Source of the DNA: Candidatus Kapaibacterium sp.
GTDB lineage: Bacteria > Bacteroidota > Ignavibacteria > Kapaibacteriales > NICIL-2
Direction: 5' to 3'
Length of the DNA: 64,000 bases
NCBI GenBank assembly: GCA_025055755.1
Contig: JANWWF010000001.1
Coordinates: 414,670 to 478,669, forward strand
Shown here piece after piece: positions 11,984 through 51,557 of the stretch (position 1 is the stretch's first letter; the number at the start of each line of letters is the position of its first letter). The position numbers were made by a program, and so were the translations under genes. The notes under the pieces are model-generated. The model was not told the origin of the DNA and searched no databases. It saw only the letters and a list, made by a program, of their open reading frames with translations.

Positions 11984-12946
11984 CTATCGTTCTTTCAATA
12001 CCGTATCAAGCGCTAAACCACAGCTTAGGCGATGCACCAACGCAGGTGCACTGAGCGTGGTCAGGGTATAATCCAGCGTTAGGGAAGGGAATACAAGTCC
12101 TGCCCCAACGCCGAAGCCACTTAATGGTGAAGCACTCACCGATGACTGTCCTGAACGAACTCCATTATCGTAGCCTAGGCGAAGCTGCACGCTTTTGCCC
12201 AGGTAAAGCTCTCCAGCTATAGCAAAATTGCGAAGACGCTCAGTAAGTGACATCCGATCCTCGACCAACCGCGTCAAACTAAAGTTAACCATCAACGGTA
12301 GCCCTCGCAGACGATGACTAACGCCCAGGCGAATATCTGTCGGGAGTGCAGCACTTTCGCCATTCATCCTCGCAAGTTGCACTCCAAAATATCGAATTGA
12401 GCCACCTATCGAAGTGCGAATCAAAGGAAATTGGTAAAACAACCCAACAGTGGCAATGAGCGCACTTGCAGCACCGCGATCGATAGCCGTATGAACATAC
12501 CCAAGGGACACTCCGTAAAAAACATTCGTGTCAAGCTGATTTGCATATGATACTTGCAACGCAAAATGAGCAGCACCAAATGTTCCTATTGCATTCCCCA
12601 GCGCATCGGTACGAGTAAACTGCCCATAGCTGGTATATGCAGCTGTTGCTCCCCACCATCCTGCTCCCATCTGTCCGCAGTATGCAGCTACTCCAGAGTT
12701 AATGTCGAGCACATGCTTGATAAAGGTTAGCGACAACGCATCAGGAGGAACAGTTGGAATCGTTGCAGGATTGTATAGTTGAGCCGATGCATCACCAGCG
12801 ATTGCAACAAATGCACCAGCTAAACCTGCTGCACGTGCGCTCTCCGCTGTTCGGAGAAAATCAAATGGAGAAAGTGTCTGCCCCCAGCACAGCCTGCTTA
12901 GGGTCGCAACGCATACAAGTACTTTTCCAACACCTTTTATGCACAT
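11984..12946 (-). CDS. PorQ/PorV-family outer membrane beta-barrel protein (type IX secretion associated)
   Basis: A 320-residue protein with a signal peptide (to about residue 22) and the hallmark N-terminal segment 'PFDFLRTAESARAAGLAGAF' followed by 'ASAQLYNPA', typical of PorV/PorQ-type barrels. The remainder alternates strands (e.g. 'SIRYFGVQLARMNG', 'LGYDNGVRSGQSSVSASP'). In Bacteroidota PorV and PorQ support release or attachment of T9SS cargo at the cell surface. The T9SS sorting domain at the left edge and the GldL/GldM-like genes at 49-51 kb support this reading. It overlaps the thioesterase gene by 10 bp. Confidence 0.7.
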   Translation of the reverse strand: MCIKGVGKVLVCVATLSRLCWGQTLSPFDFLRTAESARAAGLAGAFVAIAGDASAQLYNPATIPTVPPDALSLTFIKHVLDINSGVAAYCGQMGAGWWGATAAYTSYGQFTRTDALGNAIGTFGAAHFALQVSYANQLDTNVFYGVSLGYVHTAIDRGAASALIATVGLFYQFPLIRTSIGGSIRYFGVQLARMNGESAALPTDIRLGVSHRLRGLPLMVNFSLTRLVEDRMSLTERLRNFAIAGELYLGKSVQLRLGYDNGVRSGQSSVSASPLSGFGVGAGLVFPSLTLDYTLTTLSAPALVHRLSCGLALDTVLKER

Positions 12947-48041: not shown

Positions 48042-48130
48042 GCACATCTCCTTTGGTGCACTTATACAGCACCGCACCAACTGTACAACGTGCACCTAAA
48101 ATAGGTGAAACAATACCTTGTGCGGTTGCA
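48042..48130 (-). promoter_or_regulatory. rpsA 5' leader with mutually exclusive helices
   Basis: The ~89-nt leader (minus strand) can form either P1 (CACCTA/TAGGTG, 48107-48093) plus P3 (TTGGTGC/GCACCAA, 48080-48074 with 48059-48053), or P2 (GGTGCAC/GTGCACC, 48096-48090 with 48061-48055). P2 competes with both. P3 ends at the Shine-Dalgarno (48048-48054), which suggests translational control of S1; structure is inferred from complementarity only. Confidence 0.5.
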
Positions 48131-48136
48131 AGCGTG

Positions 48137-48144
48137 CAAAAATA
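48137..48144 (-). promoter_or_regulatory. TAnnTTTG-type -7 element of rpsA
   Basis: Minus-strand TATTTTTG. An inverted-repeat partner, TATTTTTA on the plus strand at 48155-48162, faces the divergent LptF/G gene, so the region looks like a back-to-back promoter pair. Confidence 0.5.
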
Positions 48145-48189
48145 CGATTGCACTGTATTTTTATGTACAAGCTACTCCCAGAGTACAGG

Positions 48190-49278
48190 ATGCGCATCTT
48201 AGATCGTTATATTCTCCGCGGTTTTGTGGTTAGCATGGCGTTTGCTTTGCTTGCATTTTCTCTGGTATTTATTGTTGTTAACTTGATTGAGAGCTTAGAT
48301 AAGTTTATTGATCGGCAAGCAGATGCAGCTACGGTGATTTTGTATTACTTTTACTACCTACCCGAAATTTTTAAGCTCTTAGTACCGATTACTGTTTTGG
48401 TTTCTGCACTTTTTGTTGTCGGGAAAATGACTGATAACTACGAAACAACTGCAATGAAAAGTGCAGGGGTAAGTCTGTATCGTTCACTATTGCCTCTGGT
48501 AATCTTAAGTGGTTGTATTGCCACTGCCCACTTGTACTTTAATGGCTGGATTGTCCCACGGGCGCTCAGCAAAAAATTTGCAATTGAGCGCCAATACTTT
48601 GGTAGGAATGTTGGAGGTATCCAAGAACAACTATACGGACTGTATTTACGCGACACTCCTACTCGTGTAGTGACAATCGGCTTTTATGATGTACGAGCAC
48701 AATCAGGTACAGACATTACCATAGAGGAGTACACCGATCCACTGCTCCCCCGAACATATCGCTATGTGCAGGCGCAACACTTTGGATGGGACTCGGTGCA
48801 ACAATGCTGGATGGGTAGGGACTGCATCGTCCGCACCATTACCGCTGAAAAGGTAGTATCAAGCTACCATCCCCAACTACCGTTAGCACTTTCAACGAGC
48901 CATCAGCAGCTTGCCACCCTGCAGCGCTCGCTCGAGGAAATGACCTTCCCCGAACGAAGTACCTATATTACTTTTCTTCAAAATGGTGGTCGCAATACGC
49001 GACAACTCGATATTGCCCAAGCAGGGGACTATGCATTTCCATTTGCAAACATTATTGTCATACTGATTGCTGTACCGTTTGCGTGGGTAAAAAAGCGTAG
49101 TGGTTTGGCTGCAAACATTGCCGCGGCAATGTCTATAACTTTTCTTTATCTTGTCTTGACAAAAGTGAGCCAGGCAGTTGGAAGCGGAGCACCTTTAGCT
49201 CCAGCCTTGGTAGGATGGAGTGCAAACATCGTGTTCCTCATCGTCGGGATTATCATCCTTGCTCGAACACCAACATAA
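48190..49278 (+). CDS. LptF/LptG family permease (LPS transport)
   Basis: A 362-residue protein with two N-terminal transmembrane segments ('RYILRGFVVSMAFALLAFSLVFIVV', 'KLLVPITVLVSALFVVGKM') and 'NYETTAMKSAGVSLYRSLLPL', a ~170-residue periplasmic beta-jellyroll, then C-terminal TMs from 'AFPFANIIVILIAVPFAWVKKRSGLAANIA'. It is a subunit of the LptB2FG exporter of lipopolysaccharide to the outer membrane. ATG 48190 gives the family start 'MRILDRYI'; ATG 48163 would add nine residues. The GldL-like gene begins 10 bp after its stop. Confidence 0.88.
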   Translation: MRILDRYILRGFVVSMAFALLAFSLVFIVVNLIESLDKFIDRQADAATVILYYFYYLPEIFKLLVPITVLVSALFVVGKMTDNYETTAMKSAGVSLYRSLLPLVILSGCIATAHLYFNGWIVPRALSKKFAIERQYFGRNVGGIQEQLYGLYLRDTPTRVVTIGFYDVRAQSGTDITIEEYTDPLLPRTYRYVQAQHFGWDSVQQCWMGRDCIVRTITAEKVVSSYHPQLPLALSTSHQQLATLQRSLEEMTFPERSTYITFLQNGGRNTRQLDIAQAGDYAFPFANIIVILIAVPFAWVKKRSGLAANIAAAMSITFLYLVLTKVSQAVGSGAPLAPALVGWSANIVFLIVGIIILARTPT

Positions 49279-49288
49279 TGTCCGGCCA

Positions 49289-50098
49289 ATGGCAGAAATT
49301 GCTTCTCTTGCTACGGCGGAAGGTCGCGAATATTTCCGCAGTCTGTACATGATCCTGCGCTACGAACAACAACGCGGAGCGTGGGAAACCTTGCGTCTGC
49401 TCTGGCTGATTGCCACGCGCGAGCGTTCACTTCAGTCTTATGGGCTTGATGTTACAATACGTCACCGTTTAGGCATTACGGCAGGAACACGCCTATGGCT
49501 CGAGGAAATCGTTAGCCGTTATTACTATTCGACGGTGCTATCATTTGTGTACGGAGGGGCAGCAATATTGTTGGTCGTTGTGGGAATGCGTCGATTCTCG
49601 GCCGGCATAAGCGATACGATCGTGCTATTGAGCATTGGGCTGGAAGCACTTTTGCTTTTGGTTCTCTTCATAGTATTATTCGTTACACCCGGCGAGGATC
49701 CCTCTGCCCCTGTTACAGAAAAACTCGAAGAAATTGTCCGCGAAATTGGGGAAATCAGCCGCGAGCATGCAGCCAGCACAACGGCTCTCGAAGAAGCAGT
49801 ACGGCAGTTAAGAGTGCTCACCCAAGAAATCAACAAATTGTCCGATTCTACCGCTCAAGCTGTTGCAGTAGCAACCCAAGCAGTTTCCCCTGCACCAGAA
49901 ACAATTCAACGCATATCCCAAGTTAGCCAGGCACTCGATAACCTGCGACAGAGCATCGAGCATTTGACCGCTGCCGCTCGCGCTCTTGAGCGTGAGAATA
50001 TCTCGGCAGCGGTTCGCACAGAACTTGAGAAACTACTTTCTCTCCGAGTAGAAAGTATTACAAATCCACCACGCAATGACACAACGACGGGGAATTGA
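49289..50098 (+). CDS. GldL-like inner membrane protein with cytoplasmic coiled coil
   Basis: A 269-residue protein. After an unusual ~90-residue N-terminal extension come two transmembrane helices: 'VLSFVYGGAAILLVVVGM' and 'IVLLSIGLEALLLLVLFIVLFV', then a coiled coil ('KLEEIVREIGEISREHAASTTALEEAVRQLRVL' ... 'QALDNLRQSIEHLTAAARALE', quoted in part). GldL of the T9SS motor has the same two-helix plus coiled-coil plan with a 'FVYGxGAAxVIxGA' first helix and a Glu-containing second helix ('GLxxEAL'); here 'GLEALLL' retains a Glu. Called GldL-like by architecture, with low sequence identity expected. It overlaps the next gene by 23 bp. Confidence 0.5.
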   Translation: MAEIASLATAEGREYFRSLYMILRYEQQRGAWETLRLLWLIATRERSLQSYGLDVTIRHRLGITAGTRLWLEEIVSRYYYSTVLSFVYGGAAILLVVVGMRRFSAGISDTIVLLSIGLEALLLLVLFIVLFVTPGEDPSAPVTEKLEEIVREIGEISREHAASTTALEEAVRQLRVLTQEINKLSDSTAQAVAVATQAVSPAPETIQRISQVSQALDNLRQSIEHLTAAARALERENISAAVRTELEKLLSLRVESITNPPRNDTTTGN

Positions 50099-51557
50099 AA
50101 TCTACTTTGTTCTTTACTTGGCAGCATTGATGCTGCTGGTGTCTGATTCACCCCGTAGAGAAACTGACATCGCAAGTACAGCGCTACGGAATCTTCTTCG
50201 CTCAACATTTTCCCTTTTGTCGGAGAAACAAACGCTCTTATGCCGCGTGCACTTTATCGCTGACTCCTTTCGCATTGTACTGTTCGATAGCGTCAACACA
50301 ATTATCCCGACTGGACTTATTGATAGCCTTCGATACTCACTTGTAGCTGAAGACCAGTCTAATGGGAATACTTTTCCCCTCCCGATAGATGGCAGTACCC
50401 GCATCGGTGCATTTGAGTTTACTACCGAAACAGTCCAACAAGCTCTCCGCATTCGGTGGCAGATGCGTGCAACTGAACTGCAACCTCGACTGTTTCGTGT
50501 GCGTGTTCAGGCAACTGCTGTGCCACGCCTACCCCCTGCACTGGAAGGAGAGCAGCGCCGTCAGCTTGAGTCCCTCCTTGCCACTCAAGAGCCAATACTT
50601 GAGAGCGAAACAACATTTCTGGTGGGCTATCTTCCAGAATTTGTACCTCCCCCACTTGGCTCCCCTTCGACAATAGATACTACGCTCGAACGGCGCTTAC
50701 GTACTTTGCTCACACAACGTCAGGAAGCAGTTAAAGCACCGGATGCTTTTACTCTTGTGCCCGAATACACTACCGTTTACACTATCCCCTACTTACAGTG
50801 GGAAAATCGCATCATGATTTATGGAGCATCACTCGAACAGGACCTTCAGCGTCCCCCTCAAGTTATTGGGATTCCGTCGCCCCAGGTCATTATCGAACGC
50901 AATACTCTCATCATTCGAAGCACAAGCACTCAAGCTTCCTCTGCAAATGTGCGCGTTCTCCTCACACGCCGCGACGGTTTCGAAGCAACCGCAACATTTG
51001 TGGTTATCACCCAAGCGTTAGAAATGCCCAACGTTCCTGCCATGATGCATCCTGGAGTGGTGTACCATTTTGTTCCTAATCTGCCTGTCGTTAGTGGTAC
51101 ATCAACACGTGCTGTGCTACGTGACGGAGATGTTGTCCGCACAGTGAGCAATGGCGAGCCCTTCACATTTGTACCCACACTTAGTGATACTGGCCATACC
51201 TTTTACTTCGAACGATTCGTTGGCACCGATCGTATCGGGCAAACGATTCCCATCCCCTGTGCAATGTTTCCTCCACCAGAGATCCTCAGTATTCGACGAG
51301 AAAGCGAGCGAACCTACATTGTTCAGTGTCGGGGTTATGGTCTTCGTTCCGACCCTCGTGCCCGTTTGCGACTGGAATTAGAGCCGCCTGCTACAGGGAA
51401 AGTCCAGGAACTCTATGGCGATACTTCCTACGATGACGACATCCATGCACGACTGCAACAATTCCGCGTTACTCTTAGTAGCAGCGTGTCCCCTGTTATT
51501 CGCGCAGTGAATGGATATCAACAGCGTTCTGCTGCTCGAGAGCTATCGAGTCGATAG
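50076..51557 (+). CDS. GldM-like protein: N-terminal membrane anchor with periplasmic Ig-like domains
   Basis: A 493-residue protein with a single N-terminal TM ('IEIYFVLYLAALMLLVSD', ~8-25) and a long beta-rich periplasmic region with repeated Ig-like strands ('IVVRSTST', 'NVRVLLTRRDGFEATATFVVI', 'RLELEPPATGKV'). GldM pairs with GldL, has one TM that threads into GldL and four periplasmic Ig-like domains, and is encoded directly after gldL. Position, size and topology match; no conserved GldM motif was recognised, so this is inference. Its end overlaps the convergent mltG by 15 bp. Confidence 0.45.
   Translation: MTQRRGIEIYFVLYLAALMLLVSDSPRRETDIASTALRNLLRSTFSLLSEKQTLLCRVHFIADSFRIVLFDSVNTIIPTGLIDSLRYSLVAEDQSNGNTFPLPIDGSTRIGAFEFTTETVQQALRIRWQMRATELQPRLFRVRVQATAVPRLPPALEGEQRRQLESLLATQEPILESETTFLVGYLPEFVPPPLGSPSTIDTTLERRLRTLLTQRQEAVKAPDAFTLVPEYTTVYTIPYLQWENRIMIYGASLEQDLQRPPQVIGIPSPQVIIERNTLIIRSTSTQASSANVRVLLTRRDGFEATATFVVITQALEMPNVPAMMHPGVVYHFVPNLPVVSGTSTRAVLRDGDVVRTVSNGEPFTFVPTLSDTGHTFYFERFVGTDRIGQTIPIPCAMFPPPEILSIRRESERTYIVQCRGYGLRSDPRARLRLELEPPATGKVQELYGDTSYDDDIHARLQQFRVTLSSSVSPVIRAVNGYQQRSAARELSSR

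Follow-up and report, generated by a model that had tools for sequence, protein, structure and literature searches.

What do two overlapping genes encode when they are laid out like gldL and gldM and escape the models built for either family? The 64,000-nucleotide stretch of Candidatus Kapaibacterium sp. DNA analyzed here (the window) comes from a genome of 2.33 Mb in 136 contigs. The original prediction, made from the letters and their reading frames, proposed that it carries diverged homologues of GldL and GldM, the proton-driven motor of the T9SS, behind an LptF/G gene. Our analysis indicates that the pair, P0001 and P0002, is probably an ion-driven inner-membrane motor of the GldLM type that constitutes a separate subfamily and is not the product of a canonical gldKLMN operon. 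A role in the T9SS is plausible. The features of the locus are as follows.

48118–49278, + strand: LptF/LptG-type permease (Pfam LptF_LptG, 2.2e-62)
49289–50098, + strand: P0001, putative GldL-like ring protein, 269 aa (hairpin, C-terminal helices, remote GldL similarity)
49289–49522, + strand: N-terminal extension of P0001, residues 1–78, predicted mixed alpha/beta domain on the cytoplasmic side, without counterpart in GldL (AF2; conservation among 21 aligned homologues)
49526–49681, + strand: TM hairpin of P0001, TM1 80–103 and TM2 109–131 (AF2, conserved Glu)
49550–49552, 49589–49591 and 49643–49645, + strand: hairpin residues Tyr88, Arg101 and Glu119
49709–50062, + strand: C-terminal cytoplasmic helices of P0001, residues 141–258 (AF2 helices; coiled-coil matches in HMM scans)
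50076–51557, + strand: P0002, putative GldM-like axle protein, 493 aa (conserved partner)
50076–50141, + strand: single TM helix of P0002, residues 1–22, RRGIEIYFVLYLAALMLL (AF2 helix 2–22)
50142–51554, + strand: predicted periplasmic, beta-rich, multi-domain Ig-like part of P0002 (AF2, Foldseek)

Architecture of P0001 and its probable relation to GldL

The gene arrangement was as described: the LptF/G stop at 49278 lies 10 bp before the P0001 ATG at 49289, and the P0002 ATG at 50076 precedes the P0001 stop at 50098, giving a 23-bp overlap. The LptF/G gene likely starts at the ATG at 48190 (MRILDRYILRG). AlphaFold 2 (AF2) modeling of P0001 (pLDDT 65, moderate confidence), together with hydropathy, gave the anticipated two-TM hairpin with Glu119 in the second helix, followed by a cytoplasmic tail of long helices (141–197 and 203–258), which is the plan of GldL. 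The N-terminal extension, proposed to be unusual and 90 residues long, proved shorter, with about 78 residues before TM1 (AF2 pLDDT 69–83 per 10-residue block). Because it is conserved throughout the order, we regard it as a real domain and not a wrongly called start. Twenty-eight columns are invariant among 21 aligned P0001 homologues, many of them within the extension, where G12, R13, W39, L61, G62, G66, T67, and W70 are invariant across the order. A longer reading from a GTG at 49220 was rejected, as it is with the ATG at 49289 that the homologues line up.

The hairpin retains the residues expected of a GldL-type protein. The Glu119 position does not vary among the 21 P0001 homologues, nor among the 21 rows of an alignment across the hairpin subgroups. 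A Tyr precedes the GAA motif in every P0001 homologue, one residue nearer to it than in GldL, and a basic residue stands 11 positions after the Gly (Gly90 in P0001) in 19 of the 21, the other two having Asn. The TM2 Glu falls at +29 from the same Gly (+30 in three of the 21); the +11 basic/+29 Glu spacing is that of short-loop GldL members. These three positions correspond to Y13, K27, and E49 of GldL. Secretion by F. johnsoniae requires E49 of GldL, and E59 is needed for gliding only (PMC8986121); Y13A and K27A are given as reducing secretion in the portion of PMC9127263 that cites Hennell James 2021. No acidic residue occurs at E+10, the position of E59, in the P0001 family, the next acids lying ~16–18 residues further on. 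P0001 thus shares with GldL the hairpin, the TM2 Glu, the basic residue ending TM1, the Tyr before GAA, and the long helical tail, but differs in its 78-residue N-terminal domain, its longer TM2, and the missing E59 counterpart.

Curated models do not reach this similarity. The suggested TIGR03513 search returned no match to P0001 by hmmscan or in its own genome, and none across the order; all curated family matches to P0001 were coiled-coil noise, none above chance. Matches to SMC proteins and chemoreceptors were set aside as products of coiled-coil composition, as was a match to the GldL of PDB 7SAX (E = 0.006), which covered the tail only and reflected composition. Foldseek gave no significant match for P0001. 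Comparing the P0001 family profile with canonical GldL, however, hhalign returned E = 7.1e-5 (Prob 63%) and brought hairpin and TM2 Glu of the two families into register. Reversed GldL scored 0.018, four unrelated multi-TM families scored 0.039–0.5, and among 36 unrelated single membrane proteins compared with the pooled hairpin profile the best score was 0.013; the family score is clearly better than these controls, yet modest. The profile similarity and retained residues indicate that P0001 is likely a remote homologue of GldL, at a distance below the curated model.

P0002 resembles GldM in plan

The description of P0002 as a one-TM protein with a large Ig-rich periplasmic part agrees with its AF2 model (pLDDT 68), in which an N-terminal helix (2–22) is followed almost entirely by beta strands, with pLDDT mostly 70–92 over residues 320–485. 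The best Foldseek matches were generic Ig/cadherin-like chains. In GldM, domain D1 is helical, whereas the first periplasmic domain of the modeled P0002 is beta (low confidence). Both proteins follow the ring protein in gene order and have one N-terminal TM helix before a long multi-domain periplasmic rod with Ig-like domains.

Homology to GldM is another matter. P0002 matched neither TIGR03517, the other model suggested, nor any curated or Pfam family; no GldM chain appeared among its top 50 fold matches, and a profile search of PDB sequences returned nothing beyond chance. Against canonical GldM, hhalign returned E = 0.004 (Prob 8%; reversed 0.19), which is not significant, whereas the true diverged GldM of family f28, from an operon with GldL and GldK (L073; TIGR03513 1.5e-7, TIGR03517 8.7e-10, GldK 2.8e-49), scored 6.6e-9. 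Of the proposed remote relationship to GldM, the topology and gene order therefore stand, whereas these scores do not establish homology. P0002 does resemble partner proteins from other orders of the class, at about 2e-4 in both the TM region and the C-terminal part, its TM helix aligning with their YFVLYLVAL helix (1.8e-4).

Distribution and related clusters

P0001 family members were found in all 61 genomes searched in the order, mostly complete or nearly so. Within a 148-genome phylum sample, every one of the 12 genomes of the order has both P0001 and P0002, as does a single genome of a sister order (G179), and P0002 occurs in exactly these 13. The two genes are usually adjacent; in G009 they lie on different contigs, with both still present. 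One homologue of P0001 (L028) lacks an adjacent P0002. At a distance of 20 bp upstream of this homologue is a gene for a CheY-type response regulator (L028 7333–7980), an arrangement that recalls the binding of PorX to GldL (PMC10951265) and possibly represents a PorX-like input to the motor, offered as a lead only.

The wider hairpin family is present in 8/24 other genomes of the class, G179 included, and missing from 16/24, all of which have SprA. Because every class member has SprA and the hairpin is confined to the order and these eight, co-occurrence with SprA cannot assign a role. In a tree of the hairpins (short alignment, long branches), two four-TM paralogues, A and B, group together, P0001 groups with the G179 protein, and all stand apart from GldL.

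Clusters outside the order (L064–L070) encode a ring protein, a GldM-like protein (often split), and then secreted proteins. Their hairpin family matches P0001 at E = 6e-16 by hhalign, and the gene order is shared, but these ring proteins lack an N-terminal extension of the P0001 type. In the f12 clusters separate genes encode the TM and the secreted portions of the GldM-like protein, and upstream lies a DUF2254-like membrane gene. In G179, two secreted proteins come after a pair of the window type; both have homologues behind the GldL/M-like pairs of f13 (hhalign 1e-5 and 8e-5; reversed 0.08–0.1), and these in turn are related to those of f12 (3e-6). Judged by sequence, these secreted proteins are probably outer-membrane proteins and may be barrels; those tested had no Pfam match. 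Neither gldK nor gldN was found in these clusters, and no secreted proteins of this sort neighbor the pair in the family to which the window belongs.

The T9SS of the source genome and the hairpin paralogues

Two T9SS genes noted earlier within the window hold up.

14–682, + strand: protein with a T9SS C-terminal sorting domain (PF18962, Por_Secre_tail, 5.7e-8, over cut-off)
11984–12946, − strand: PorQ-like T9SS gene (NF033711 2.3e-47, below the curated cut-off; PorV/PorQ family NF033709 above cut-off)

SprA, for which a check had been advised, is present (916 bits) and occurs in all genomes of the order. With PorU (NF033707 4e-64, C25 2e-70) and sorting-domain cargo also encoded, this is a T9SS-bearing genome, as in organisms with GldLM. 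What distinguishes it is the pair's locus, which has no linked gldK or gldN, and the order as a whole, in which curated models found no canonical GldL or GldM. The recommended search for GldK and GldN gave a weakly GldK-like PKD/FGE lipoprotein on another contig, beside a FliI-like gene (L094 8998–11038, G000:C70), and no GldN, although PF19841 failed to match its positive control as well. The FliI-like ATPase at this locus matches T3SS_ATPase_C (4.3e-27), a possible FliH also lies near the lipoprotein, and besides its T9SS this genome may also code for a flagellum.

Across the phylum, SprA occurs in 117/148 genomes, curated GldL in 39 (36 over cut-off), and curated GldM in 41 (36 over cut-off). 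Since most SprA-positive genomes outside the groups covered by the models have no recognizable GldL or GldM, the absence of a match here is weak evidence.

The window's genome also encodes paralogues A and B, in which two extra TM helices and a cytoplasmic loop precede a hairpin of the P0001 type. A (442–455 aa) and B (about 325–400 aa) occur in most genomes of the order. A, found at L021 5622–6950 (G000:C48) and at L079–L083, has no Pfam annotation, and its profile search of PDB sequences likewise returned nothing beyond chance. In these six genomes, namely those in which the downstream gene could be read whole, A lies immediately upstream, on the same strand, of a 1740–1942 aa PorU-type gene, confirmed as PorU by HMM in three of the six. 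A, and not P0001, is thus syntenic with the T9SS sortase. No axle gene adjoins A, and P0002 is the sole GldM-like protein found in each genome. B is found at L022 4265–5476 (G000:C125), L024, and L084–L087. In family f2 it adjoins AAA_16 and BNR-repeat genes, and in L086 these are fused into one 1603-aa protein.

Weighing the explanations

The motor reading draws on the downstream partner with one TM helix and an Ig-like part, and on the presence of the pair in 12/12 genomes of the order; the silence of TIGR03513 and TIGR03517 counts against it. For the claim that this motor drives the T9SS, the presence of the system is supported, but the pair is not linked to gldK or gldN, synteny with PorU favors A, and in a sister family the pair keeps company with putative outer-membrane proteins. 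Possibly the pair is a fast-evolving GldLM ortholog and nothing other than the T9SS motor of Kapabacteriales: it accompanies SprA in 12/12 genomes alongside PorU, PorQ, and sorting domains, no other GldL or GldM is recognized by model, and P0001 keeps the functional residues of GldL. Yet there are three hairpin paralogues, the family is patchy in a class where SprA is universal, and the weakness of the GldLM absence cuts against this account as well. A possible alternative, given nearly equal weight, is a separate GldLM-like motor for a dedicated outer-membrane device, the T9SS motor being built from A or from unrecognized parts. The secreted proteins behind the G179 pair, the patchy distribution, and the placement of A before PorU-sized genes speak for it, whereas the lack of secreted-protein neighbors in the window's own family and the lack of an axle gene beside A speak against it.

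It is unlikely that the pair forms a two-gene envelope complex other than an ion-driven motor, such as one that serves LPS export via LptF/G. In the window genome the pair is flanked by LptF/G and YceG, and LptF/G sits next to P0001 both in f1 genomes and in one f3 genome, G009 (L078; spacing 2 bp, LptF/G phmmer 1.3e-84). In f2, f9, and f16, however, other genes flank the pair. Because the adjacency is missing in most families, we rejected a functional tie, and LptF/G is probably just a neighbor. An invariant intramembrane Glu accompanied by a basic residue is, moreover, readily explained by a motor.

Proposed mechanism and implications

In the favored reading of an ion-driven motor of GldLM type, P0001 hairpins, five by analogy, would form a ring enclosing the one TM helix of each subunit of a P0002 dimer. 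Protons would pass via Glu119, with Arg101 and Tyr88 acting alongside, in the roles of GldL E49, K27, and Y13. The Ig-like rod of P0002 would carry the resulting rotation into the periplasm, probably to drive a process at the outer membrane. As its target the T9SS is the foremost candidate, since this genome encodes SprA, PorU, and PorQ and no GldL or GldM is recognizable in it. This way of working would resemble that of the 5:2 motors MotAB, ExbBD, and TolQR, and A and B have the four-TM plan of MotA. No sequence match to these systems was found, and, like GldL, it is the ring protein rather than the axle that holds the putative ion-binding acid.

With SprA in 117 genomes and curated GldL in only 39, the energy source of the T9SS outside the groups covered by the models is an annotation gap, and the P0001/P0002 family is a concrete candidate motor for that gap in one order. 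The conserved Tyr/Arg/Glu triad of P0001 narrows the set of residues that a GldL-type motor needs, and the four-TM paralogues bear on the relation of GldL to MotA/TolQ. We tentatively entertain a second, independent lineage of GldLM-type motors in Kapabacteriales and neighboring orders. Its ring proteins would all come from a single family, with either two TM helices or a MotA-like four-TM plan; some would be coupled to outer-membrane proteins of their own, and one would share a locus with PorU. If correct, this lineage would provide a topological bridge between GldL and motors of the MotA/TolQ type.
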